The notes beneath the pieces were generated by a model. The model searched no databases. It was not told the DNA's origin and saw only the letters and a program-made list of their open reading frames with translations. This document shows positions 1-18,258 of a stretch of DNA of 64,000 nt, piece by piece. Numbering within the stretch: the first letter of the stretch is position 1; each line of letters begins with the position of its first letter. The translations under genes and the position numbers were made by a program. The stretch comes from Pseudomonas furukawaii (GTDB lineage Bacteria > Pseudomonadota > Gammaproteobacteria > Pseudomonadales > Pseudomonadaceae), in contig NZ_AP014862.1 of assembly GCF_002355475.1 (NCBI RefSeq), forward strand, positions 1,178,001 to 1,242,000, given 5' to 3'.

Positions 1-58
1 GTTTGGTTTTCATATTTTCTATTAGGATGATTGGTTATTTTGCCTTGGTGGGGTTGAT

Positions 59-865
59 ATGGAGCGTCGATGCTATTTCGTGGTGGGCGATAAGTTCAAG
101 GCTTTCGCTGAGGGAAAGAATGTTCTCACCCTAAGTCAATTAAGGTCGCTGACTGATCTTCCGGATGGATTTATGGATGTCCGCGCCGTACTAAAGTTGG
201 GGCAAGGTGTGCAAGAAGAGGAAGTGCGCGAAATCCTGAATAGGCACGAGAGCAGAGGAGGAGTCAAAGCACTGTTGGAATTATCGGATTTACATCGTGT
301 AAAAGATCGTGCGGATAGTGTTATTAGTCATAAACGTTTTCCATACAACACCCTTATTGGCTCTCCGCAAAAAATCGTCGAGGATGAATTTCTGATTCCG
401 TTGAATATTGATGAGCGTTGCGAGTTGATGGGGGATCACCAGACCGGGCAGCATGTGCAAGGAATGATAGTGATCGAAGCTTTCAGACAGTCCTTCTTGG
501 CTGTTACGGAGGCTTTCTTTCCGCTTGAGAGCAAGAGTAGCTATTTTGTAATCAATATGATGAATGTGAGTTTCACGAGTTTCTTGTTTCCGCTGCCAGC
601 GCATGTGAGTTATCGAGTTCTGGAGGCGAACAGAAGCAGGAAACGTGCACGTTATAAAGTGATCATGTCTGCAGTCCAAAATGAAGTTGCTTGTGCCACT
701 GCTGAGGTGTCTTTTACCGTATATCCTGCCAGCAGTATTGCGCCAAAAGAGGCTGAGCTCGCCTACCAAGTCACTGAGGCTCTGCTTGGGCTCATGCCTC
801 ACACGGTCAACCGTTCCATCCAGCCTGCAGGCGGAAAGACTCTGGCGTTGGAGATTGAGCGATGA
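59..865 (+). CDS. AfsA-like hotdog protein (putative butenolide/butyrolactone synthase)
   Basis: 268 aa. The second half carries the signature of the A-factor biosynthesis (AfsA) hotdog family: a D-H-Q-T-G-x-H stretch near residues 126-132, then V-I-E-A-F-R-Q at 138-144, with the conserved Glu and Arg-Gln of that family. AfsA-type enzymes condense a beta-ketoacyl-ACP with dihydroxyacetone phosphate to start butenolide or gamma-butyrolactone signals. The first ~100 residues are weakly conserved, so whether there are two hotdog domains, as in Streptomyces AfsA, is unclear. No signal peptide is seen, so it should be cytoplasmic. The ATG follows a GGTGGGG stretch. The next gene overlaps by 4 bp. 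G+C is much lower than in the core genes. Family call is good; substrate and product are inference. A dehydratase-type hotdog is the main alternative. Confidence 0.78.
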   Translation: MERRCYFVVGDKFKAFAEGKNVLTLSQLRSLTDLPDGFMDVRAVLKLGQGVQEEEVREILNRHESRGGVKALLELSDLHRVKDRADSVISHKRFPYNTLIGSPQKIVEDEFLIPLNIDERCELMGDHQTGQHVQGMIVIEAFRQSFLAVTEAFFPLESKSSYFVINMMNVSFTSFLFPLPAHVSYRVLEANRSRKRARYKVIMSAVQNEVACATAEVSFTVYPASSIAPKEAELAYQVTEALLGLMPHTVNRSIQPAGGKTLALEIER

Positions 866-1689
866 CCAAGGTCTATTCCCTCAGCGTTACCACCCAGGGA
901 CCGCTTTACCCGCCAAGCGAAATCATGAATGAAGCGGGGGACTTCATCGTGATCGGGCGCATTCCACAAGCGGATGGCACGCTTCCCTGGGGAGGAGCGA
1001 TCGTGTCTTCCGCAACCCAAGCCCCTACATTCAATGAATTAGGTGTGTATGACGTATTGAAGTGGATCGACTTGACGAACTTGGGAAAGTTGGCCGACCA
1101 AGTACTACACACGCTGCCTCTGCCATTGCCGGTCAATAATTACCCAATTTTGTTCGCACCCGAGCAACGGCCTCAGGCGCATAGTGAATTCCGCTCTAGT
1201 TTTCCCCTCCACGAGGCGCCGGTTCCTGACCTTCGTGCCGAGGATGGTCGCAGGCGAAAGTCTCCGATAACTCTGAGGCAGTGGTTGCGAGCAAGCGGGG
1301 AACTAAAGGTCAGTGTGGATAATGGTGGTCGCACTGCCTTGTTTGAACTTGAGTGCAAAAATCTACTGCCAGACAGCCTCTATACCGTCATGAGTTTGCG
1401 CCAAAACGATCTTCGCCCCGAGAACCCCAGCCGGCCAGGACCGCTAGGCATACCCAACGCGTTCATAACAGATGCTGAGGGCAATGGTTACTACTGGGCT
1501 CGCCTGCCCAATCCATTTCCCGATGCAAGCCTTCCCAGTGCAAACCGTATTATCAATGTGGTCGTATTGTACATGAGTTCTCAGATGACTCATGGCGGGG
1601 CTGTCGGTTGGTACGGATTGGGCGCAGATATACATGCCCAGTTGAAGCTAAAGGCCGATAGTTTCTCCAGCCTACTCACATGTGGCTAA
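862..1689 (+). CDS. Unrecognised 275-aa protein coupled to the AfsA-like gene
   Basis: I do not recognise this family. The start ATG overlaps the stop of the AfsA-like gene (ATGA), so the two are probably translationally coupled and used together. There is no signal peptide or membrane segment. Residues ~130-270 look like a beta-sandwich: alternating hydrophobic strands, a Y-T-V-M-S-L strand, a D-A-E-G-N-G turn, and a C-terminal G-A-V-G-W-Y-G-L-G-A-D-I-H-A-Q-L segment reminiscent of extracellular or ligand-binding beta-domains. The N-terminal ~110 residues have no motif I can name. Low G+C like its neighbours. A role in the AfsA-linked pathway is inferred from position only. Confidence 0.7.
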   Translation: MTKVYSLSVTTQGPLYPPSEIMNEAGDFIVIGRIPQADGTLPWGGAIVSSATQAPTFNELGVYDVLKWIDLTNLGKLADQVLHTLPLPLPVNNYPILFAPEQRPQAHSEFRSSFPLHEAPVPDLRAEDGRRRKSPITLRQWLRASGELKVSVDNGGRTALFELECKNLLPDSLYTVMSLRQNDLRPENPSRPGPLGIPNAFITDAEGNGYYWARLPNPFPDASLPSANRIINVVVLYMSSQMTHGGAVGWYGLGADIHAQLKLKADSFSSLLTCG

Positions 1690-1741
1690 ATAAAATTCAA
1701 TTCATTAAAAATAAATTGCATGAGCCTATCGAGGATATTCC

Positions 1742-1972
1742 ATGCCTGTAATACATATCGCTACATGGCCGATTGAGGATGAACGAGTCGCACGAGCCAT
1801 AATCGAGGGAGTGACACGGGTCGTTCATGAATTGAGCGGCGTTCCGCTCGACAAAATATCAGTTTACATATCGGAGATCATGCCCTCCAGATGGGGGGAT
1901 GCCGGAGTACTTGGCACCGATCCAGAGTTCAAAAAGCAGAGTCGGCGTCTGAGTTATGAGGATAGCCAGTGA
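1742..1972 (+). CDS. 4-oxalocrotonate tautomerase-like protein
   Basis: 76 aa, the size of the 4-OT family. After Met removal it begins with Pro (M-P-V-I-H-I), the catalytic N-terminal proline of the tautomerase superfamily. The rest fits the beta-alpha-beta subunit fold, with an L-D-K-I-S-V-Y-I-S-E strand. Relatives tautomerise enols or dehalogenate and usually work as hexamers. A GAGG ribosome site sits 7 bases before the ATG. The stop overlaps the GTG start of the HAD gene by 4 bp (GTGA), which suggests coupled expression. In this context it may act on an enol or lactone intermediate; that is inference. Confidence 0.82.
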   Translation: MPVIHIATWPIEDERVARAIIEGVTRVVHELSGVPLDKISVYISEIMPSRWGDAGVLGTDPEFKKQSRRLSYEDSQ

Positions 1973-2670
1973 ATGGATTGACCGGTTTGGTTTCGGAGCC
2001 CATTGAGCCAGGAAAATGCTTCGCGTTCTTCGATGTGGACGAGACACTTATAACGTTGAAAAGTATGTTCGACTTCTTCCCTTTCTGGTGCGAGCGACAG
2101 AAGAGTCCAGAGTTGAGGCAACGCTTCGATGCGGCATTCGCGGAGGCGCGGGAGGAGGCGCGATCTAGAGAGCATCTCAATAGACTCTATTACGGCTTCT
2201 TTCAACTGGAGTCGATGTCAGCCCTCGAGGCTGCGGGGCGAGAATGGTTCGAGAGTAGGTTCTGCGGACTTCGATCACCTTATATAGAGCAGGTAGTCGC
2301 GCAACTTAAAGCACACCAGAAGGCAGGGGAGGTGCCTGTTCTTGTGTCAGGCTCAATGCTGCCGTTGCTTGAACCACTTGCGATCTCCTTGCAAGTTGAG
2401 CATTGCCTGTGCACGAAGTTGATGGTCGATGCATACGGTCGCTTGACGGGCGATATCGAGTCACCACAGACGATCGGCCAGGGAAAGGCCGAGGCCATCA
2501 GGGTCTTCCTCCAGCAGAACAATGGCGCTGCACAGGACTGCTACGCATATGGCGACGATGTCTCCGATCTCCCAATGCTTGAAGCAGTCGGCAAGCCTGT
2601 CGCCGTTGGCGGTGTCAGTGAGCTGACCGTATTGGCTGTGTCCCGAGGTTGGCGCCATCTGCGTTTATGA
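1969..2670 (+). CDS. HAD-superfamily phosphatase (subclass IB, SerB-like)
   Basis: 233 aa. HAD motif I is F-D-V-D-E-T (nucleophile and acid Asp at residues 22 and 24). Motif II is the L-V-S-G-S strand near 125-130. Motif IV is G-D-D-V-S-D-L-P-M-L near 195-205. The helical cap between motifs I and II is that of subclass IB (SerB/CicA type). The start is a GTG overlapping the tautomerase stop, with GAGG upstream. Family members hydrolyse small phosphomonoesters. HAD-type phosphatases are known partners of AfsA homologues, such as MmfP in methylenomycin furan synthesis, where they remove the phosphate brought in by DHAP. That makes this the likely phosphatase of the island (inference). Confidence 0.8.
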   Translation: MNGLTGLVSEPIEPGKCFAFFDVDETLITLKSMFDFFPFWCERQKSPELRQRFDAAFAEAREEARSREHLNRLYYGFFQLESMSALEAAGREWFESRFCGLRSPYIEQVVAQLKAHQKAGEVPVLVSGSMLPLLEPLAISLQVEHCLCTKLMVDAYGRLTGDIESPQTIGQGKAEAIRVFLQQNNGAAQDCYAYGDDVSDLPMLEAVGKPVAVGGVSELTVLAVSRGWRHLRL

Positions 2671-2708
2671 GAGTGCTGTCCTGATAGAAATACTTTGGAG
2701 TAGTTCAT

Positions 2709-3926
2709 ATGGAACGAAATATGTCGGCGGCACCTGCTAAAGAACTCCCTCGCTGGCGCGTCTGGCTGGCTATCGTGTTACTCGGAGTTGGTGCATTTAC
2801 TATTGTCACTACCGAGTTGGCACCTATCGGACTTCTGTCCCCCATCGCGCTCGAGCTTGACCGCAGTGAGGCCACGGTTGGTCTCACCATCACCCTCTAT
2901 GCATGGATTGGTGCCTTCAGCGCTCTCTTGGCTGCATTCACTTTGAGTCGTCTGCCACGCAAGCCGCTTCTGATTGGTCTCATGCTTGGGTTGGCGCTAT
3001 CCAACATGCTCGCCATGCTTGCGGGCGACTTCGACATGCTGCTCCTGGCTCGTGTGTTCGGCGCCGTTGCACATGGACTGTTCTGGGCCGTGATAGCTGC
3101 TACCGCGGCGCAAATCGCGCCTGCTCGGAGTGTCGGTCTTGCGACTTCGATCGTTTTTGGCGGTGTTTCGGCAGCCAGCGTGCTTGGTGTTCCATTGGCC
3201 AATTTCGTGGGTCAGGTCAGTAGTTGGCGCATTGCCTTTGGTGGCATTGGGGCGCTTGGCCTGATGGTGGCACTCGTTATGGTACCTATTCTTCCAGGCC
3301 TTCCACTCCAATCTGGCCAGGGACGTACCGCGCTTGCCGGAGTGTTGAGAAGGCCCGATCTATTGGGAATCTACGCAGCAACTGCGCTGGCAGTTACGGG
3401 ACATTTCGCAGCCTTTACCTTCATCGAGCCTTTTCTGCGTAGCGTCCCCGATGTGTCGGCAATCCTCGTCGCAGCCTTGCTCTTCGGTTTCGGTGCCGCA
3501 GGCCTGTTTGCCAACCTTCTTGCGGGGATCTTCATCGATCGCTATCTGAAACCGTTCCTGATGCTCGCACTCACTCTGCTGACCCTGGCGTTGCTGGTCA
3601 TGGGGGCGTGGGACGACCGTCTAGGAGGCCTAGGAGTCAGCATCATGCTGGTGCTGTGGGGCAGCTCGGTTTCCGCGATCTTTGTCGGATTCCAGACTTG
3701 GATACTCCGTACAGCGGGAGCCGCGGCAATGTCTGCATCAGCGGTCTACGTCGCGATCTTCAACGCAGCCATCGGAATCGGGGCCATGGTGGGTGCCTGG
3801 GTTCTGAGTCATGCAGGACTCCCCACCGTATTGATGATCGCGGGGCTGGGCGGTGCCCTGGCTCTCTTTCTGGTCGCTGGTCTGGGGCGTCCTGCTCTGG
3901 TGTTCGTGCAGGAGATCAACAAATGA
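2709..3926 (+). CDS. MFS efflux transporter (DHA1 family, AraJ/SotB-like)
   Basis: 405 aa with about 12 hydrophobic segments and no signal peptide. The first segment has the T-T-E-L-A-P-I-G-L-L-S pattern seen in AraJ/SotB/YdhP-type DHA1 exporters, followed by the L-S-R-L-P-R-K-P loop between segments 2 and 3 typical of MFS proteins. These usually export small drugs, sugars or metabolites. GGAG lies 8 bases before ATG 2709; an internal ATG four codons later is also possible. Its stop overlaps the next gene by 4 bp. It probably exports the product of the island, or protects the cell from it (inference). Confidence 0.86.
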   Translation: MERNMSAAPAKELPRWRVWLAIVLLGVGAFTIVTTELAPIGLLSPIALELDRSEATVGLTITLYAWIGAFSALLAAFTLSRLPRKPLLIGLMLGLALSNMLAMLAGDFDMLLLARVFGAVAHGLFWAVIAATAAQIAPARSVGLATSIVFGGVSAASVLGVPLANFVGQVSSWRIAFGGIGALGLMVALVMVPILPGLPLQSGQGRTALAGVLRRPDLLGIYAATALAVTGHFAAFTFIEPFLRSVPDVSAILVAALLFGFGAAGLFANLLAGIFIDRYLKPFLMLALTLLTLALLVMGAWDDRLGGLGVSIMLVLWGSSVSAIFVGFQTWILRTAGAAAMSASAVYVAIFNAAIGIGAMVGAWVLSHAGLPTVLMIAGLGGALALFLVAGLGRPALVFVQEINK

Positions 3927-4333
3927 GCACTCAATCCGAGTCGATGAGCGAAAAGACTCTGCGCGGTCGCCGTCTAATGGATGCGCTGGAACCCAATACA
4001 GCTGAGAGGGTGACGAACAGGTTGTCGGAATTGGACCCACAGCTGGCGAAGCTGATTACCGATTATGCGTTTGCTGACGTACTCGGTCGACCAGGGCTGG
4101 ACCTCAAGACCCGCGAGATGCTGACCGTTGCAGCCCTAACAGCACTGGGCAATGCGCCTTCTCAACTGGAGTTCCATATGCGCGGTGCTCTCAATGTTGG
4201 GGTTCAGCCAGCAGAATTACTGGAAGTCGTGATTCAAATGGCGATCTACGCAGGAGTGCCAGCCTGCATGAATGGATTGACGGCCTATCGAGCCGCGCTC
4301 GCGGGGCACCAGTCCCGCTCAAACAAGGAGTAA
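3923..4333 (+). CDS. Carboxymuconolactone decarboxylase-like protein
   Basis: 136 aa from the ATG that overlaps the MFS stop (ATGA), preceded by AGGAG. The core T-R-E-M-L-T-V-A-A-L-T-A-L, then E-F-H-M-R-G-A-L-N-V-G-V, then A-I-Y-A-G-V-P-A-C matches the PcaC/CMD fold. There is no CxxC pair, so it should not be an AhpD-type peroxidase; the single Cys lies in V-P-A-C. PcaC decarboxylates a butenolide-type lactone in the beta-ketoadipate pathway, but no other pca genes are here. A role in lactone or enol chemistry of the island is inference. Confidence 0.82.
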   Translation: MSTQSESMSEKTLRGRRLMDALEPNTAERVTNRLSELDPQLAKLITDYAFADVLGRPGLDLKTREMLTVAALTALGNAPSQLEFHMRGALNVGVQPAELLEVVIQMAIYAGVPACMNGLTAYRAALAGHQSRSNKE

Positions 4334-4340
4334 GGCAAGT

Positions 4341-5369
4341 ATGAAAACAGTTACTCACCAAGGCATTCTTCCAACGCGTACGCTAGGGGACGGCTTGCGC
4401 GTTTCCGCACTGGGTTTTGGCGCCATGGGCATGAGCGAGTTTTATGGCCCTTCGGATGACGCAGCCTCCAGGTCTCTTCTGCAAGAGGTTGTAGAGCGCG
4501 GTGTCACTTTGATCGATACCGCCGACATGTACGGGCAGGGTCACAATGAGCAGCTCATTGGTGACTTGCTCAAAATGAAGCCTCACATGCATCTGTCCGG
4601 GCAACTCAAAATTTCCACGAAGTGTGGCATAGAACGCTCCGGTGCCTCGTCGTCCTCTCGGCGTATCAACAACACCCCTTCATACATTCGAGCTTCCTGC
4701 GAGGGTTCTCTGAAACGTCTTGGCGTTGACCGAATTGATCTTTATTACATTCACCGGGTTGATCCAGAAGTAAATATTGAAGACACCATGGGCTGCCTTG
4801 CCGAACTGGTAAGGGAGGGAAAGATCGCTCATGTGGGATTGTGCGAGGTGTCAGCCAAAACTCTGGAACGAGCACATCGAGTTCATCCGGTGGCGGCGTT
4901 GCAGACAGAGTATTCACTGTGGAGCCGAGAAGTTGAGCAGGACATTCTGCCAACGGCGAACAAGCTCGGCATCGGCTTTGTCGCATATTCGCCTCTCGGG
5001 CGTGGATTCCTTACTGGCCGCCTGAAAAGCAGGTCAGATCTGGCAGTGGGAGATTTCAGACTAAGCAACCCACGCTTTGAGGAGCAGAACCTTTCGCACA
5101 ATCTGAGGTTGCTCGAGTCGATTCAACATGTTGCTGAGAACTATGGTGTGACTCGAGGCCAGGTTGCTCTGGCATGGTTACTGGCTCAGGGGCCTTGCAT
5201 CGTGCCGATCCCCGGAACTCGCCGCTCAAGTTACTTGCAAGAGAATCTTGGTGCGTTGACGGTGAGCCTAAGTTCTGAGGATCTGAAGTTCCTGGGCGAG
5301 GCTATGACCTCAACCGAGGTACGGGGTGCGCGTTATGGTAGTGCCGGAATGCAGGGGATTGATGCCTGA
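4341..5369 (+). CDS. Aldo/keto reductase
   Basis: 342 aa, a full AKR barrel. The catalytic tetrad is visible: D59 and Y64 in L-I-D-T-A-D-M-Y-G, K94 in I-S-T-K, and H138 in Y-Y-I-H-R-V. The C-terminal I-P-G-T-R-R-S motif binds NADP(H). It resembles the YajO/PLR-like branch that reduces aldehydes and ketones. GGAG precedes the ATG, and it lies 7 bp after the CMD-like gene, so it is the last gene of the plus-strand run. In AfsA-type pathways a reductase acts on the butenolide ring or side-chain ketone; a similar step could be done here (inference). Confidence 0.88.
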   Translation: MKTVTHQGILPTRTLGDGLRVSALGFGAMGMSEFYGPSDDAASRSLLQEVVERGVTLIDTADMYGQGHNEQLIGDLLKMKPHMHLSGQLKISTKCGIERSGASSSSRRINNTPSYIRASCEGSLKRLGVDRIDLYYIHRVDPEVNIEDTMGCLAELVREGKIAHVGLCEVSAKTLERAHRVHPVAALQTEYSLWSREVEQDILPTANKLGIGFVAYSPLGRGFLTGRLKSRSDLAVGDFRLSNPRFEEQNLSHNLRLLESIQHVAENYGVTRGQVALAWLLAQGPCIVPIPGTRRSSYLQENLGALTVSLSSEDLKFLGEAMTSTEVRGARYGSAGMQGIDA

Positions 5370-5388
5370 TACCGGCGACACATTCCGC

Positions 5389-6327
5389 CTAGGGTGCCAA
5401 CCACGAAGCCGATATGGCACGTAAAGCTTGCATCTTGTCCAGAACACTGGCCCTCGCTTCCTGGGCCCGAGTGACCATGTGAATATCAATGGCCAGCAGT
5501 CTTTCCAGTGCCGGTTCAAGCGGGCGGTAGGTAATCCCAACGCGGGATATGCCGCTCATTGACTTGGGGCACAGGGCTACACCTTCGCCTGCTGCTACCG
5601 AAGCCAGCAGCAGGGTGAAGTCCCTAGGCTCAAGTCGCTTGGGCGGTGTGTAACCATAGGTTCTGAATACATTTTCACATTTGTCGTAGAACGCGGGGTT
5701 ATCGGCGCGGGCGAACCAGAGCAATGGAAGTTCGACAAGATCGCTAAATGTGACGACTGGTTTGATTGCGGCTGGATGTACGGTGGGCAGAACTACGACC
5801 ATTGCTTCCGTACCGACTGGTTCGACAACCAGTCCATCCGGCGGGTCAGAAATGTTTCCCACGATGGCTATGTCCAGTTCGCCCTGTAGGACACGTTGTA
5901 CGAGGTGCTTGGAGAAGGCACGTTCCAATGGATATCCACGGAAGAAATCAGGATCGCTTGTCAATGCATGCAGGCTTGGAATCAGCGAGTAGTCGACAAC
6001 ACTGGTCAAACCGATTCTGACCCTATCCGCGTTTTCATCATGATCGGTGAAACGAGTTCGCAGGTTCTCCAGCGCCGAGTCAAGTGCCGCAAGGAAATTG
6101 TGGGCGTCGATCCTGAGCGCTTCTCCTGCAGGGGTCAGGGTCACGTGACTGGTATTCCGCTGGATCAGTTGCACTCCAAGTAGCGACTCCAATCCCTGAA
6201 TCTGGCGCGATAAGGGCGGTTGCGTCATGTGCAAGAGTTGCGCAGCACTGCGAAAGTTCAACTCCTGCGCCACAGCAAGAAAGCACTGCAATGTTCTCGA
6301 ACTGGGCAAGCGTTTGGATAACAACAT
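5389..6327 (-). CDS. LysR-family transcriptional regulator
   Basis: 312 aa from ATG 6327; an upstream ATG at 6402 would add 25 residues but has no ribosome site, while 6327 has GAGG about 10 bases before it. The N-terminal winged helix-turn-helix is clear (F-L-A-V-A-Q-E-L-N-F-R-S-A-A, then T-Q-P-P-L-S-R-Q-I), followed by a periplasmic-binding-like effector domain. The family binds DNA as a tetramer and responds to a small ligand. It converges on the aldo/keto reductase with 19 bp between stops, so control of the island would have to act at a distance, probably at a promoter upstream of base 59. Base composition matches the island. Confidence 0.88.
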   Translation of the reverse strand: MLLSKRLPSSRTLQCFLAVAQELNFRSAAQLLHMTQPPLSRQIQGLESLLGVQLIQRNTSHVTLTPAGEALRIDAHNFLAALDSALENLRTRFTDHDENADRVRIGLTSVVDYSLIPSLHALTSDPDFFRGYPLERAFSKHLVQRVLQGELDIAIVGNISDPPDGLVVEPVGTEAMVVVLPTVHPAAIKPVVTFSDLVELPLLWFARADNPAFYDKCENVFRTYGYTPPKRLEPRDFTLLLASVAAGEGVALCPKSMSGISRVGITYRPLEPALERLLAIDIHMVTRAQEARASVLDKMQALRAISASWLAP

Positions 6328-6674
6328 CGTCTTGGTGTCCTCATCCACCTTCAGCAGGGGATGTCTGATCGTTTTGATGCAGTTTTGTTGGGGCGGATGC
6401 ACTTTCCGTCAATTTGGGGGCGTAGTGTTGTCGACAACGCTGGATTACGAGCGAGTTCGTGGGCAATTACAGGCAGTTGCTGATGCCTTTTCGCGCACTT
6501 CCGAGTCTGGAATGTCGCAATAATCACCGGCGGCGGGAAGTGAACTTGTTCCAAAGTCCGCGTCAGGTTTTTCACTTTCTTTGAGCGGATGCCCGGAAGC
6601 ATATAGGAGCTTCTCCCGCTATGGCCGTTGCTTTTTTGAAATGCAAGTACCTCTGCTGCTCAAGTCGGAGCAAG
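6328..6674. other. Intergenic: LysR upstream region and compositional boundary
   Basis: No gene is supported here. The left part holds the LysR promoter region and a perfect 12-bp palindrome, GTTGTCGACAAC, at 6427-6438, a possible operator. The mixed-composition DNA of the island gives way to the G+C-rich core sequence towards 6680. No tRNA, direct repeat or recombinase marks the junction. Confidence 0.5.
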
Positions 6675-7328
6675 TCAGCTAGTGCCAAGGCGTTCAACCA
6701 CCAGCGTCAGTCGCGCCACGAATCCGGCTCCGTCCTCCACCAGTTCGGCCACCGAGTGTTCGCCGTCCTGCCGGCGATAGATGTAGTCCTGCTCCAGGGG
6801 TGTCCAGTCCTGGCCGGGGTGTGCGTACGGGGGGCGGGCCATGGCGGGGCGGATCAGGGCCTCGGGGAAGTAGAGCTGGCCCGTGTGGATATCGCGCCTG
6901 TCCAGGTGCAGCTTGAGGTGCACGTGGTTGGTGCGGCCCGGGTAGTAGCCCGGAAGGATGCTGCGGAACTCGGCGCGGCCTTCGCCGTCGGTGATCTGCA
7001 CGCCGCGCAGGTAGCGGCTCGCTGCGTCGGCGCCGACGCCCGAATAGGCGCCCTGGGCATCGCAGTGCCAGATCTCCAGGGCGGCGCCATCCAGGGGGCG
7101 GCAGTCGTGCAGTCGCAGCACTTCGAACTGCAGCCGGAGGGGAAGGCCGGGCTTGCCATCGGTGATGTCCTGGCGCAGCAGGGCGTCGTCCAGGTAGAAG
7201 GGACCGGCGGTCTGCTCCGGGGAAAGCCGGCAGGCGCGGGCCGCCTCGGCTCGGCCCAGGCGCGGCCAGTGCAGGACCACCAGGCCGCCGAGGCCGAATT
7301 GCAGCAGCTGTCTACGGGTGGGGAACAT
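6675..7328 (-). CDS. Exported intradiol ring-cleavage dioxygenase-like protein
   Basis: 217 aa. It starts with a twin-arginine-type signal (P-T-R-R-Q-L-L-Q-F-G-L-G-G), so it should be exported folded. The remainder is the protocatechuate 3,4-dioxygenase C-terminal-type domain: A-G-P-F-Y near 40, the L-P-G-Y-Y-P-G-R Tyr pair, and T-N-H-V-H-L His residues, the Tyr/His set that binds non-haem Fe(III). It lacks the N-terminal linker domain of cytosolic PCA or catechol dioxygenases. GGAGG precedes the ATG. It is divergent from a multicopper oxidase also carrying a Tat-type signal. Substrate unknown; a periplasmic aromatic diol is likely from the family. Confidence 0.82.
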   Translation of the reverse strand: MFPTRRQLLQFGLGGLVVLHWPRLGRAEAARACRLSPEQTAGPFYLDDALLRQDITDGKPGLPLRLQFEVLRLHDCRPLDGAALEIWHCDAQGAYSGVGADAASRYLRGVQITDGEGRAEFRSILPGYYPGRTNHVHLKLHLDRRDIHTGQLYFPEALIRPAMARPPYAHPGQDWTPLEQDYIYRRQDGEHSVAELVEDGAGFVARLTLVVERLGTS

Positions 7329-10963: not shown

Positions 10964-12496
<1,533 letters not shown>

Positions 12497-12596
12497 TCAG
12501 GCGACGCGAGGCAGCGCGGGAGGTGCCGGAAAGCGGCGCTTTGCGCTAGAATGCACGGCCTCCAAGCACACCCCTTCCCCAGAGGCTGTCCCGACG

Positions 12597-15500
12597 ATGT
12601 TGATCCTGCGCGGTGCTCCCGCCCTTTCCGCCTTTCGCCACGGCAAACTGCTCGAGCAACTGACCCAGAAGGTCCCCGCTGTCAGCGGACTCTACGCCGA
12701 GTTCGCCCATTTCGCCGAGGTGACGGGCGTACTCACCGGGGACGAGGAGCAAGTCCTGGCCCGTCTGCTCAAGTACGGCCCCAGCGTCCCGGTCCAGGAG
12801 CCCAGCGGTCGCCTGTTCCTGGTGGTGCCGCGCTTCGGCACCATTTCGCCCTGGTCCAGCAAGGCCACCGACATCGCCCGCAACTGCGGCCTGGCGAAGA
12901 TCGAGCGCCTGGAACGCGGCATCGCCTACTACGTCGCCGGTGAGCTGAGCGAGGCCGACGCCCAGGCCGTGGCCAGCACCCTGCACGACCGCATGACCCA
13001 GCTGGTGCTGGCCGGCCTGGACGAGGCGTCCGGCCTGTTCAGCCATGCCCAGCCCAAACCGCTGACCGCCGTGGATGTCCTCGGTGGCGGCCGCTCCGCG
13101 CTGGAGAAGGCCAACGTCGAACTGGGCCTGGCGCTCGCCGAGGACGAGATCGACTACCTGGTGAAGAGCTTCGTCGAACTGGGCCGCAATCCCCACGACG
13201 TCGAGCTGATGATGTTCGCCCAGGCCAACTCCGAGCACTGCCGCCACAAGATCTTCAACGCCAGTTGGGACATCGATGGCCAGGCTCAGGAAAAGAGCCT
13301 GTTCGGCATGATCAAGAACACCTACGAGATGCACCGCGAAGGCGTGCTGTCCGCCTACAAGGACAACGCCTCGGTCATCGAGGGCTCCACCGCCGGCCGC
13401 TTCTTCCCGGACCCGGCGACCCGCCAGTACGGCGCCACCCAGGAGCCCGTGCACATCCTGATGAAGGTGGAAACCCACAACCACCCGACCGCCATCGCCC
13501 CCTTCCCCGGCGCCTCCACCGGCTCCGGCGGCGAGATCCGCGACGAAGGCGCCACCGGCCGCGGCGCCAAGCCCAAGGCGGGCCTGACCGGCTTCACCGT
13601 CTCCAACCTGCAGATCCCCGGTTTCGAGCAGCCCTGGGAGAAGCCCTACGGCAAGCCCGAGCGCATCGTCACCCCGCTGGACATCATGATCGAGGGCCCG
13701 CTGGGCGGCGCCGCGTTCAACAACGAGTTCGGCCGCCCGGCCCTGACCGGCTACTTCCGTACCTTCGAGCAGGCCATCGACACGCCCCACGGCGAGGAAG
13801 TGCGCGGCTACCACAAGCCGATCATGCTCGCCGGCGGCATGGGCAACATCCGCGCCGAGCACGTGCAGAAGGGCGAGATCTCCATCGGCGCCAAGCTGAT
13901 CGTCCTCGGTGGCCCGGCCATGCTCATCGGCCTCGGCGGCGGCGCGGCCTCCTCCATGGCCACCGGTGCGAGCTCCGCCGACCTGGACTTCGCCTCCGTG
14001 CAGCGTGACAACCCGGAAATGGAGCGTCGTTGCCAGGAAGTGATCGACCGCTGCTGGCAGCTGGGCGCCGAGAACCCCATCAAGTTCATCCACGACGTGG
14101 GCGCCGGCGGCATCTCCAACGCCCTGCCGGAACTGATCAACGACGGCGGTCGCGGCGGCCGTTTCGAGCTGCGCGCCGTGCCCAACGACGAGCCGGGCAT
14201 GAGCCCGCTGGAAATCTGGTGCAACGAGTCCCAGGAGCGCTATGTGCTCTCCGTGGACGCCGCCGACTTCGAGCGCTTCAAGGCCATCTGCGAACGCGAG
14301 CGCTGCCCCTTCGCGGTCGTGGGCGAAGCCATCGAGGAGCGTCACCTGACCGTCAGCGACAGCCATTTCGGCAACAAGCCGGTGGACATGCCGCTCGAAG
14401 TGCTGCTGGGCAAGCCGCCGCGCATGCACCGCTCCGTCAGCCGTGAAGCCGAGCTGGGCGACGACTTCGCCGGCGCGGTGGACATCGACGACGCCCTGAG
14501 CCGCGTGCTGCACCACCCGGCCGTGGCCAGCAAGAACTTCCTGATCACCATCGGCGACCGCACCATCACCGGCCTCGTGGCCCGTGACCAGATGGTCGGC
14601 CCCTGGCAGGTCCCGGTGGCCGATTGCGCCGTCACCGCCACCAGCTTCGACGTCTACACCGGCGAAGCCATGGCCATGGGCGAGCGCACCCCGCTGGCCC
14701 TGCTGAACGCCCCGGCTTCTGGCCGCATGGCCATCGGCGAGACCATCACCAACCTGGCCGCCGCGAAGATCGACAAGCTTTCCGATATCAAGCTGTCCGC
14801 CAACTGGATGGCCGCCGCCGGTCATCCGGGTGAAGACGCCCGCCTCTACGACACCGTCAAGGCCGTGGGCATGGAACTCTGCCCGGCGCTGGGCATCACC
14901 ATCCCGGTGGGCAAGGACTCCATGTCCATGAAGACCCGCTGGCAGGACGAGGGCGTGGACAAGTCCGTCACTTCGCCGCTGTCCCTGATCGTTACCGGCT
15001 TCGCCCCGGTGCAGGACGTGCGCGCCACCCTGACTCCGCAACTGCGCCTGGACAAGGGCGAGACCGACCTGATCCTGGTGGACCTCGGCCGTGGCCAGAA
15101 CCGCCTGGGCGGCTCCATCCTCGCCCAGGTCTACAGCAAGCTCGGCCAGCAGGTACCGGACGTCGACGACGCCGAGGACCTGAAAGCCTTCTTCGCCGTG
15201 ATCCAGGGCCTGAACGCCGATGGCCACCTGCTGGCCTACCACGACCGTTCCGACGGCGGCCTGCTGGCCACCGTGCTGGAAATGGCCTTCGCCGGCCACT
15301 GCGGCCTGGACCTCTACCTCGATGCCCTGGCGGACAACCGCGACGGCCTGCCCGCCGTGCTGTTCAACGAAGAGCTGGGCGCGGTGATCCAGGTGCGCCA
15401 GGACGCCACGCCCGAAGTGCTGGCCCAGTTCAGCGCCGCCGGCCTCGGCGACTGCGTCGCGGTGATCGGCCAGCCGGTCAACGGCGCCAACGTCGCCATC

Positions 15501-16490
15501 AGCTTCAACGGCGAAGCCGTCTTCGGTGGCGAGCGTCGCCTCCTGCAGCGCCAGTGGTCGGAGACCAGCTACCGCATCCAGCGGCTGCGGGACAACGCCG
15601 ACTGCGCCGACCAGGAGTTCGATGGCCTGCTGGAAGAAGACAATCCCGGCCTGTCGGTGAAACTCGGCTTCGACGTCAACCAGGACATCGCCGCGCCCTA
15701 CATCAGGAAGGGTGTGCGTCCGCAGGTGGCGATCCTGCGTGAGCAGGGCGTCAACGGTCAGGTGGAAATGGCCGCCGCGTTCGACCGCGCCGGCTTCGCG
15801 GCCATCGACGTGCACATGAGCGACATCCTCGCCGGCCGCGTCAGCCTCGAAGACTTCAAGGGCCTGGTGGCCTGCGGTGGCTTCTCCTACGGCGACGTGC
15901 TCGGCGCGGGCGAGGGCTGGGCCAAGTCCATCCTCTTCAACGCCCGTGCCCGTGATGGCTTCCAGGCCTTCTTCGAGCGCAAGGACAGCTTCGCCCTGGG
16001 CGTGTGCAACGGTTGCCAGATGATGTCCAACCTGCACGAGCTGATCCCCGGCACCGAGTTCTGGCCGCACTTCGTGCGCAACCGCTCGGAGCAGTTCGAG
16101 GCCCGCGTCGCCATGGTGCAGGTGCAGGAATCGTCCTCCATCTTCCTGCGTGGCATGGCCGGTTCGCGCATGCCCATCGCCATCGCCCATGGTGAAGGCC
16201 ATGCCGAGTTCGAAAGCGAGGAAGCCCTGCTGGAAGCCGACCTGTCCGGTTGCGTGTCCCTGCGCTTCGTCGACAACCACGGCAAGGTCACCGAAACCTA
16301 CCCGGCCAACCCCAACGGTTCGCCCCGTGGCATCACCGGCCTCACCAGCCGCGACGGCCGCGTGACCATCATGATGCCGCACCCGGAGCGGGTCTTCCGC
16401 GCCGTGCAGAACTCCTGGCGCCCCGACGAGTGGCAGGAAGACGCCGGCTGGATGCGCATGTTCCGCAACGCCCGCGTCTGGGTGGATTAA
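12597..16490 (+). CDS. purL: Phosphoribosylformylglycinamidine synthase (PurL)
   Basis: 1297 aa from ATG 12597, the usual length for the large single-chain enzyme of gammaproteobacteria; an in-frame start at 12474 lies in the promoter region. It makes FGAM from FGAR, ATP and glutamine, step 4 of purine synthesis. Order: N-terminal domain, linker, two AIR-synthase-like halves (N-S-E-H-C-R-H-K near 210; [10 protein letters not shown] and G-S-G-G-E-I-R-D near 300), then a C-terminal glutaminase with nucleophile Cys in G-V-C-N-G-C-Q and the H-G-E-G-H motif. A strong terminator follows. The opposite strand also stays open for almost the full length because of codon bias. Confidence 0.98.
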
Positions 16491-16604
16491 CCGGCCGAAG
16501 GCGGTCCGATGACCCTCTCCCACAGGTGGGGGAGGGCGCCAGAAGGGCGGGAAAGGGCTGGTTCAGCCAACCCCCCCGCCGTTTGGCCCATGCGGTCATC
16601 GACA

Positions 16605-16643
16605 GGAAAAGGCGGGAGAAGGCACCCTTCTCCCGCCTTTTTC
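16605..16643 (+). terminator. Terminator after purL
   Basis: Long stem AAGGCGGGAGAAGG / CCTTCTCCCGCCTT with a 3-base loop, followed by a T-run. A weaker hairpin made from CCCTCTCCC...GGGGGAGGG precedes it at about 16512-16536. Confidence 0.9.
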
Positions 16644-16657
16644 ATTCTGGGGCCGCC

Positions 16658-16918
16658 ATGTCGGAACCGCCGCTTCCTGAAGTCCGTCTGCTGCAACCTG
16701 GTGAGCGCTGCCGGCTCTGCCGCTGCGGGGGATCTCCGCTGTTGCCGGATTGCCCGGCGGACTGCCCGGATGGCCTCGCCTTCACCGCCCGCCGCGAGCA
16801 GCGCCTGCTGCTGTGCCGATGCGGCCGGTCTTCGCGCCTCCCCTGGTGCGATGGCAGCCACAGCCCGCCCACGCCCACCCTTGGCCTGCGTTGGCGACGA
16901 TTCTGGAAAGGTGAGTAG
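16658..16918 (+). CDS. CDGSH-type iron-sulfur protein
   Basis: 86 aa from ATG 16658. The C-terminal half has the full CDGSH ligand set C-R-C-x(2)-S-x(3)-P-W-C-D-G-S-H, which binds a 2Fe-2S cluster with three Cys and one His. The N-terminal half has a similar but incomplete copy (C-R-C-G-G-S-P-L-L-P-D-C-P), missing the D-G-S-H, so this is a tandem-CDGSH protein with one degenerate copy. Such proteins are soluble and probably act in electron transfer or redox sensing. It sits just behind the purL terminator, so it needs its own promoter or readthrough. Confidence 0.82.
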   Translation: MSEPPLPEVRLLQPGERCRLCRCGGSPLLPDCPADCPDGLAFTARREQRLLLCRCGRSSRLPWCDGSHSPPTPTLGLRWRRFWKGE

Positions 16919-17066
16919 CGCGTCGCGTTTCTCGACGAATTGCCGTAGAACGCCGGGCCTCGCCATCGGTCAAATCTGCCGACTGTGAAGAACACCACGG
17001 CAGGGATTGATATCGCAGTGCCATTATCGCGAAGCAGTCCCGCCACACGATCCTGCGGAGAACCCG

Positions 17067-17384
17067 ATGTACAAGCTCTCTTTCTATGTGCCGGAAAGCC
17101 ATCTGGAACCGGTGAAAAAGGCCGTGTTCGCCGTTGGTGGCGGCCGTATCGGCGCCTATGACAGCTGCTGCTGGCAATCGCTCGGCCAGGGCCAGTTCCG
17201 GCCGCTCGAAGGCAGCAACCCCTTCCTGGGCCAGAGCGGCGTGGTGGAGCAGGTGGCGGAGTGGAAGGTGGAGATGGTGGTGGCCGACGAACTGATCCAC
17301 GACGTCGTCAAGGCCCTGAAGAAGGCCCATCCCTACGAGACGCCCGCTTTCGAGGTCTGGCGCCTGTCCGACATGGTGTTCTGA
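17067..17384 (+). CDS. NIF3/YqfO-type C-terminal domain protein
   Basis: 105 aa from ATG 17067, with GGAG upstream. It matches the stand-alone version of the CutA1-like domain inserted in YqfO/NIF3 proteins: K-L-S-F-Y-V-P-E-S-H, G-G-G-R-I-G-A-Y-D-S-C, F-R-P-L-E-G-S-N-P, and the A-H-P-Y-E-T-P end. The conserved His/Glu ends suggest metal or ligand binding; function is not established. Its stop is 1 bp from the convergent AraC regulator stop. Confidence 0.85.
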   Translation: MYKLSFYVPESHLEPVKKAVFAVGGGRIGAYDSCCWQSLGQGQFRPLEGSNPFLGQSGVVEQVAEWKVEMVVADELIHDVVKALKKAHPYETPAFEVWRLSDMVF

Positions 17385-17385
17385 T

Positions 17386-18258
17386 TCAGCGCAAGGCCGC
17401 CCGATAGGCCCCGGGCGAGCCGCCCATGGCCGCGCGGAAGCGGTTGCTGAAATGGCTGGCGCTCGAGAAGCCGCAGGCCAGGGCCACCTCACCCAGGGGC
17501 AGCGCCGTCTCTCGCAGCAGCCAACGCGCGCGCTCCAGGCGGCGGGCCAGCACGTACTGGTGGGGAGGCATGCCGAAGCTCTCGCGGAACATCCGCGCGA
17601 AGTGGTACTCCGACAGGGCGGCGAAGGCCGCCAGCTCGCCGAGGCTGATGGGCTCGGCCAGCCGCGAGTCGATGTAATCCATCAGCCGCTTGCGCAGGGC
17701 CGGCGCCAGCCCGCCCTTGAGCCGCAGCCCATCGCGAAGGCCCGCCTGGGTCAGCACATTGTGATGGATCATCTCGAAGCCGATGCTGGTGGCGCGAAGG
17801 CGTTCGGCCGGCTCCTTCCAGTCCAGCTGGATCAACTGGTGGAAGCGCGCGACCTGCTGCGGGTCGTCGAGAAAGGTCCGCTCCTGCAACTGCAATTCCC
17901 GGGGCTCGCGGTCCAGCAGGGTGACCGCCGCCTCGGCGAAGTGCTGGGTGCTGAAGTAGAGGTGGGCCAGGCGGATCTCGCCATTGATCACCCAGGATGA
18001 CTCGTGGCCCGCCGGCAGGATGCACAGCTTGCCGGGCGCACCCTTGGCTTCGGGGCGCTCGCGGCGAAAGGTGCCGGTGCCGCCGGCCAGGTAGCAGGAG
18101 AGGGTGTGCACCTGCGGCCCTGCGTAGTCGCGGGCATCGTGGTGGTTGCTCCAGAGCGCCGCGCCCAGGCCGTCGCCCAGTTCCGCGCTGTGCTCCAGGC
18201 GGGCGTTGGGCGAACTGCTGAGGGACTGGAAGACCTGGTTCCGATCGAGTAGCGACAT
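17386..18258 (-). CDS. AraC-family transcriptional regulator
   Basis: 290 aa. The last ~100 residues hold the two helix-turn-helix units of AraC/XylS proteins (I-S-L-G-E-L-A-A-F-A-A-L-S, then L-P-L-G-E-V-A-L-A-C-G-F-S-S-A-S-H-F). The N-terminal ~170 residues are a cupin-like sensing domain. It is divergent from the DMT exporter with 143 bp between starts, so it most likely controls that gene and itself. The ligand is unknown. Confidence 0.9.
   Translation of the reverse strand: MSLLDRNQVFQSLSSSPNARLEHSAELGDGLGAALWSNHHDARDYAGPQVHTLSCYLAGGTGTFRRERPEAKGAPGKLCILPAGHESSWVINGEIRLAHLYFSTQHFAEAAVTLLDREPRELQLQERTFLDDPQQVARFHQLIQLDWKEPAERLRATSIGFEMIHHNVLTQAGLRDGLRLKGGLAPALRKRLMDYIDSRLAEPISLGELAAFAALSEYHFARMFRESFGMPPHQYVLARRLERARWLLRETALPLGEVALACGFSSASHFSNRFRAAMGGSPGAYRAALR

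Follow-up and report, generated by a model that had tools for sequence, protein, structure and literature searches.

The AfsA-type gene at the left end of the window (the whole 64,000-nucleotide stretch of Pseudomonas furukawaii contig NZ_AP014862.1, positions 1,178,001 to 1,242,000) belongs to a block of nine genes, and this block is real, foreign and intact. Besides the AfsA-type hotdog protein, the block encodes two uncharacterized proteins, referred to here as up200 and h275, a 4-oxalocrotonate-tautomerase-like protein, a HAD-IB phosphatase, an MFS exporter, a carboxymuconolactone-decarboxylase-like (CMD) protein, an aldo/keto reductase (AKR) and a convergent LysR-type regulator. On balance, we think that the block was horizontally acquired, that it is of the same kind as the killing cluster of Ruegeria pomeroyi DSS-3, and that it probably directs the synthesis of an AfsA-derived antibacterial of the butenolide class, which may induce its own production.

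Similarity to the killing cluster of R. pomeroyi

A search of plasmids with the AfsA protein returned 18 records, and the top record was that of R. pomeroyi DSS-3, with 46% identity. On its megaplasmid (locus L007), the MFS, CMD and AKR genes lie on one strand, and the LysR gene and the series up200–AfsA–h275–tautomerase–HAD lie on the other. Eight of the nine P. furukawaii cluster proteins are 44–54% identical to their R. pomeroyi counterparts (up200 49, AfsA 46, h275 54, tautomerase 53, HAD 44, MFS 49, CMD 53 and AKR 53%). Thus, the view of an earlier note on this DNA, that the partner set of the AfsA gene matches none known to its author, is not supported, since the same set makes up the R. 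pomeroyi killing cluster.

That cluster was studied genetically by Sharpe, Gifford and Septer in 2020 (PMC7426152). From a screen of 10,000 R. pomeroyi mutants they retained seven, of which one was a slow grower that mapped elsewhere. The six full non-killers all fell in the cluster: afsA (SPOA0342) was hit three times, SPOA0341 twice and the regulator SPOA0344 once. The killing activity is diffusible and passes a 0.22-µm filter, is seen only above about 1e8 colony-forming units per millilitre, and acts on targets that include roseobacters, Vibrio fischeri, Alteromonas, Escherichia coli and Micrococcus; in competition with Microbacterium, the cluster was of no advantage (PMC7426152). The products of SPOA0339–0343 are cited as 1–6% of the R. 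pomeroyi proteome (PMC7426152). From the gene order, we infer that SPOA0341 is h275, SPOA0343 is up200 and SPOA0344 is the LysR gene; the sequence record carries newer tags. No structure of the product is given in PMC7426152, and none was found in the best-matching papers of an open-access collection.

Gene content and genomic setting

The eight genes named in the earlier note are all open and lie at or near the coordinates given there, as judged from the open reading frames and Pfam matches. After a spacer at the start of the window (1..58, plus strand), the gene for AfsA, the proposed phosphorylated butenolide synthase, occupies 59..865 on the plus strand. Its assignment to the AfsA family is confirmed by PF03756 (44.3 bits, cut-off 24). 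When 42 of the 59 AfsA sequences from the clusters are aligned, the protein is seen to keep the residues invariant among them, including D126, H127, H132, E140 and R143. It is not the first gene of the run as had been supposed: up200 (200 amino acids, identified from the open reading frame list and its translation) precedes it on the same strand at 14381–14983 of the upstream stretch (L002), with its stop codon 76 bp 5′ of afsA and thus outside the window.

The remaining genes of the run, all on the plus strand, follow closely. The h275 gene (862..1689) is an open reading frame for an uncharacterized 275-residue protein, the conserved marker of the cluster. The tautomerase-like protein (1742..1972) has 76 amino acids, with a proline directly after the initial methionine, and its match to PF01361 is marginal (23.3 bits, cut-off 22). 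The HAD protein (1969..2670), proposed to dephosphorylate the AfsA product, matches PF12710 with 105.7 bits and lies above the cut-off of the HAD-IB subfamily TIGR01490 (131.4 versus 98.3 bits). The MFS protein (2709..3926; PF07690, MFS_1, 112.9 bits) is proposed to serve in export and self-protection. The CMD gene (3923..4333) was assigned from PF02627 (75.1 bits) and its start codon; its product scores below the cut-off of the PcaC equivalog TIGR02425 (79.8 versus 155.7 bits) and is, by that test, a relative of PcaC and not PcaC. The AKR gene (4341..5369) matches PF00248 (Aldo_ket_red) with 253.8 bits. Three adjacent pairs, afsA/h275, tautomerase/HAD and MFS/CMD, overlap by 4 bp. The convergent LysR gene on the minus strand (PF03466; PF00126, HTH_1, 76.8 bits) was correctly recognized in the earlier note; the end proposed for it, 6327, is an internal ATG (5389..6327), and the frame continues to a GTG at 6402 (5389..6402).

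The GC fraction in 600-base windows is 0.42–0.59 over the run and 0.63–0.71 on either side of it; a single window, at the right-hand end, is mixed. In three of the four relatives examined (L081–L083), blastn matches run to positions 13871–13877 of the upstream stretch, just past guaA, and begin again at position 6694 of the window; thus, about 7.8 kb is extra in P. furukawaii. Together with the GC profile, these matches place the right-hand end of the insert at 6328..6693. Where the insert sits, the three relatives have 117–130 bp of other sequence as the unoccupied site. The fourth relative (L084) has different DNA at the site and does not show the unoccupied state. Across 18 genomes of the genus, the distance from guaA to tadA is about 2.4 kb in ten, 4.3 kb in four, 10.1 kb in P. 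furukawaii, 19.1 kb in G013 and 34.9 kb in G010, and the interval is split over two contigs in G014. This spread shows that the content of the interval varies, and the values for G010 and G013 indicate that other inserts probably occupy the same place. No tRNA was found in positions 12000–18001 of the upstream stretch, a scan that left out the right-hand end of the insert. Promoter-like sites were fewer than in shuffled sequences (1 versus a mean of 4.0, and 1 versus 3.4).

Distribution of h275 loci

The h275 alignment was used as bait in genome contigs and found 58 loci, the hosts of which are alpha-, beta- or gammaproteobacteria or actinomycetes. With P. furukawaii, R. pomeroyi (L007) and Streptomyces sp. 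YIM 121038 (L008), these make 61 loci, 26 proteobacterial (the window included) and 35 actinomycete; some of them are truncated at the end of a contig, and some of those from Streptomyces are nearly identical. The same alignment had no match in viral contigs, and the single AfsA sequence used as query found no relative in genome or viral contigs. Homologues in gammaproteobacteria and actinobacteria had already been noted, and horizontal transfer proposed (PMC7426152); the distribution found here extends that one.

A family was scored as present when its profile matched at any position within the DNA taken around h275, which reached up to 10 kb on each side. AfsA is present in 59 of the 61 loci, HAD in 58, up200 in 53, the tautomerase in 40 and CMD in 31, followed by AKR (30), LysR (26), MFS (24) and KAS (23); owing to this scoring, unrelated family members may be counted under LysR, AKR, MFS, HAD and KAS. 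The core four (h275, AfsA, HAD and up200) occur together in 51 of the 61 loci, and the complete set of nine families in 14. In 54 loci, AfsA is no more than 2.5 kb from h275, and in 53, HAD is no more than 3.5 kb away. Since PF03756 was found in only 3 of 398 genomes sampled across the phylum, the association of AfsA with h275 is more than chance. The pairwise distances of h275, AfsA, HAD and up200 also correlate, with r values of 0.76–0.88 for five pairs, and none of 2000 permutations gave a value as high. A tree of h275 (59 rows, built by a quick method and containing several long branches) joins the P. furukawaii sequence to that of a lake-metagenome proteobacterium (L010) with a support of 97, and places the actinomycetes on one side of a branch with a support of 93. 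KAS III, searched with a Streptomyces seed, is found in 23 of the 35 actinomycete loci and in none of the 26 proteobacterial loci; thus, general metabolism is the probable source of the acyl donor in P. furukawaii.

Two loci lack AfsA, namely L020, from Shewanella sp. SR44-3, and L024. In L024 the contig stops 2.7 kb after h275, and two AfsA matches lie elsewhere in the genome. In L020 (5225–11065), a GMC oxidoreductase, AKR, MFS, CMD, h275 and the tautomerase stand together. AfsA was not found in the 4.0 Mb searched of this genome, in a search that matched three other genomes, and no up200 match was obtained in a search run without a positive control. This single case could be a protection-only set, possibly a remnant.

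AfsA genes were also met without the h275 bait. PF03756 occurs in 3 of 18 genomes of the genus, namely P. furukawaii, G008 and G003, and the 3 matches among the 398 phylum genomes include two above the cut-off, in P. furukawaii and G577; 14 control genomes gave no match. In G008 (L004), AfsA stands with MFS, HAD and DUF2165 proteins, with no h275 in the stretch seen. In G577 (L086), a HAD gene follows AfsA, and the 3.4 kb seen contain nothing else of the cluster. In G003 (L005, contig C8, around 78426–79217), two AfsA-domain matches fall in one open frame of 1148 amino acids, which by eye resembles a polyketide synthase. From these few genes, it seems that AfsA and a HAD phosphatase form a smaller module, to which the present cluster adds h275, up200, the tautomerase, CMD and AKR. 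The expectation that phosphatase, reductase and exporter genes accompany AfsA homologues holds at the 26 proteobacterial h275 loci (HAD 24, AKR 20, MFS 19, with a LysR-family gene in 23), while the unbaited AfsA genes have the smaller set.

The h275 and up200 families

The chief interest of the cluster is its product and the two uncharacterized families, h275 and up200. The h275 protein has no match in Pfam or NCBIfam, and a 48-row profile searched against the Protein Data Bank (PDB) hit one chain at E values up to 10, a ribosomal protein with an E value of 0.47 that we take as chance. Its invariant residues include H117, D123, D256 and H258; if these surrounded a pocket, that would favour an enzyme. 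Among 398 sampled genomes of the family, h275 was found in P. furukawaii alone, and among 398 sampled genomes of the phylum in two. The second (G495, L085) is a distant 64-bit match of 316 amino acids without a Pfam match, and it has, by eye, a signal-peptide-like start. Thus, h275 may be part of a wider family with secreted members. Inspection of an uncultured Alteromonadales locus (L034, 3959–8110) showed, just before the cluster, a distant second h275-like protein of 393 amino acids and two metallo-β-lactamase-fold proteins, one of them fused to an α/β hydrolase; these extra proteins could act on lactones.

The up200 protein matches no curated family. The predicted model of its L010 orthologue shows a tandem ferredoxin-like fold, placed near putative monooxygenases in a VIA-align comparison; the same fold is found in haem enzymes and in sulfur oxygenase reductase. 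We describe up200 as predicted to fold like antibiotic-biosynthesis monooxygenases.

Proposed pathway

It is plausible that the run makes a butenolide or a lactone. In gladiostatin biosynthesis, an AfsA-like domain condenses 3-ketothioesters with dihydroxyacetone phosphate (DHAP) to a phosphorylated butenolide, a reaction reconstituted in vitro (PMC7756379). By analogy with this and other AfsA-family enzymes, the P. furukawaii AfsA protein would condense a 3-ketoacyl thioester with DHAP to the corresponding phosphorylated butenolide, from which the HAD-IB protein would remove the phosphate. The AKR, the tautomerase, the PcaC-like CMD protein, up200 and h275 would then remodel the lactone; the AKR may reduce it, and the tautomerase and CMD protein may rearrange or decarboxylate it. 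PcaC itself acts on a muconolactone. The MFS protein would export the product, which at high density would kill other bacteria. The succession of AfsA, phosphatase, reductase and exporter proposed in the earlier note is supported.

Several observations weigh against this reading. The AfsA protein scores far below the cut-off of the ScbA/BarX equivalog NF041195 (24.1 versus 200 bits) and may therefore act on another substrate. Between the two species, the LysR proteins are alike over 69 residues only and are not full-length orthologues, so regulation may differ as well. AKR and MFS are not constant across the h275 loci, being present in about half or fewer of them. The R. pomeroyi insertions may be polar. 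Finally, the P. furukawaii cluster is known from its genes alone, and the killing data are those of R. pomeroyi.

In a second possibility, the partner substrate of AfsA would be a sugar phosphate, for example a pentulose phosphate, to which the enzyme would attach the acyl unit, as has been suggested for AvrD/MmyD; this would yield a furan or cyclopentanone resembling sphydrofuran or methylenomycin. In Streptomyces ambofaciens, the cluster for sphydrofuran contains an AvrD/MmyD homologue amid AKR, CMD, antibiotic biosynthesis monooxygenase, phosphatase, acyl carrier protein (ACP) and KAS III genes (PMC11195616), and an intermediate lactone of the methylenomycin pathway is described as antibacterial (PMC12593393). 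However, the likeness to the sphydrofuran cluster is one of family names only, and PF03756 is the sole Pfam family matched by the P. furukawaii AfsA at E values up to 0.01, in a scan of Pfam models that took in no direct comparison with MmyD or AvrD. We regard a sugar phosphate substrate as quite unlikely. That the cluster is catabolic or detoxifying, acting on a lactone or aromatic breakdown product, is very improbable. In favour of this reading, degradation pathways typically have a tautomerase, a PcaC-like protein and a LysR protein of the kind modelled by BenM, CatM and AlsR (models that the LysR protein matches with scores under their cut-offs), a dioxygenase_C gene adjoins the insert, and the Shewanella locus combines h275, AKR, MFS, CMD and tautomerase genes in a genome where AfsA was not found in the 4.0 Mb searched. 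Against it, AfsA and HAD accompany h275 almost throughout, the DNA that carries the dioxygenase is beyond the insert and common to relatives that lack the insert, and the R. pomeroyi mutants lose killing (PMC7426152).

Regulation and immunity

In R. pomeroyi, the wild type has 4- to 60-fold more transcript of ten cluster genes than the afsA mutant, and the mutant shows changes in 21 of 4,252 genes, these ten among them (PMC7426152). The afsA mutants are still immune, the SPOA0341 mutants are sensitive to the parent to a varying degree and the SPOA0344 mutant is wiped out (PMC7426152). These phenotypes fit if the product or a precursor is a co-inducer that acts through LysR, giving the compound a double role as toxin and inducer. 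In the afsA mutants no toxic intermediate would form, and a neighbour's product would induce export and leave them immune. The h275 mutants would be induced yet blocked, and hence sensitive, and the LysR mutant would have an exporter that cannot be induced. Polar effects of the insertions or direct protection by h275 are possible alternatives.

The dependence of transcription on afsA would also be expected if the cluster made only a signal, a γ-butyrolactone or butenolide autoinducer, with any killing agent coming from some other part of the genome. Sharpe et al. give this as one of two options (PMC7426152), and it is also the option that the earlier note put first. AfsA enzymes are best known from signals. 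Nevertheless, the small set of 21 changed genes, nearly half of them in the cluster, and the location of all six full non-killers within it argue for synthesis of the killing agent by the cluster itself, although a constitutive agent made elsewhere is compatible with both observations. We consider the signal-only explanation unlikely, and the stress of the earlier note on signalling was too narrow in view of the published mutants that lose killing.

The LysR genes of the cluster form at least two lineages. One contains those of the window, L010, L011, L017, L022, L023, L026, L033 and L044, in which the P. furukawaii protein is 59% identical to that of L010 and groups with those of L010 and of Erwinia and Vibrio loci. 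The other contains that of R. pomeroyi (L007) and eleven further loci. The palindrome ATTGC-N7-GCAAT, about 100 bp 5′ of up200, was considered as a LysR box and rejected, as it is not conserved in L010; an adjoining stretch of 15 bases is common to L010 (E value 0.055).

Returning to the antibacterial butenolide, a more specific proposal can be made, which we hold tentatively as a possibility short of probable. The h275 and up200 proteins would be two uncharacterized enzyme families that mark an unrecognized class of clusters in Proteobacteria and Actinomycetota. Their product would be a new antibacterial scaffold based on a phosphorylated butenolide, both weapon and autoinducer, read by a LysR protein that differs between lineages. 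In addition, h275 would make a toxic intermediate safe, so that its loss would both stop killing and expose the cell.

Comparison with known systems

A known kind of killing cluster is now placed in a distant host. R. pomeroyi is a model marine bacterium with a broad killing activity reported in 2020 (PMC7426152). The genes that travel together across two phyla are identified, and h275 and up200 emerge as the enzymes that merit attention. A comparison of several producers that differ in their LysR regulators could look for one common afsA-dependent compound, which makes both the identity of the product and the question of toxin versus signal directly testable.

Among actinomycetes, the plasmid cluster of Streptomyces sp. 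YIM 121038 holds homologues of AfsA, HAD, up200, h275 and AKR together, with 28–48% identity. It adds KAS III, an ACP and a TauD-like protein, and has no tautomerase, CMD or MFS match in the stretch. The γ-butyrolactone (GBL), AHFCA and AHMB signal systems of Streptomyces use a TetR-type receptor. Their pathways (AfsA/ScbA, MmfL, SabA) share an AfsA-family enzyme, a phosphatase and a reductase with P. furukawaii (PMC7756379). In contrast, P. furukawaii has an AfsA protein under the ScbA/BarX cut-off, a LysR regulator, and the additional h275, up200, tautomerase and CMD proteins. The phosphorylated butenolide synthase (PBS) domain of gladiostatin biosynthesis is likewise a Gram-negative member of the AfsA family with reconstituted DHAP condensation (PMC7756379); it is a terminal polyketide synthase domain, whereas the P. 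furukawaii AfsA is free-standing in a run without a polyketide synthase. The sphydrofuran cluster (SAM23877_3924–3936; PMC11195616), compared by family names, has a similar list of partner families and differs in its butenolide synthase, which is of the AvrD/MmyD type.

Lastly, the putative GBL killing cluster of R. pomeroyi (SPOA0342 and its neighbours) contains all nine families, as in P. furukawaii, and keeps up200–AfsA–h275–tautomerase–HAD in the same order and strand. The differences are that AKR, CMD and MFS lie on the other side and strand, that the LysR protein is another one, and that the cluster is carried by a megaplasmid, whereas that of P. furukawaii is chromosomal.

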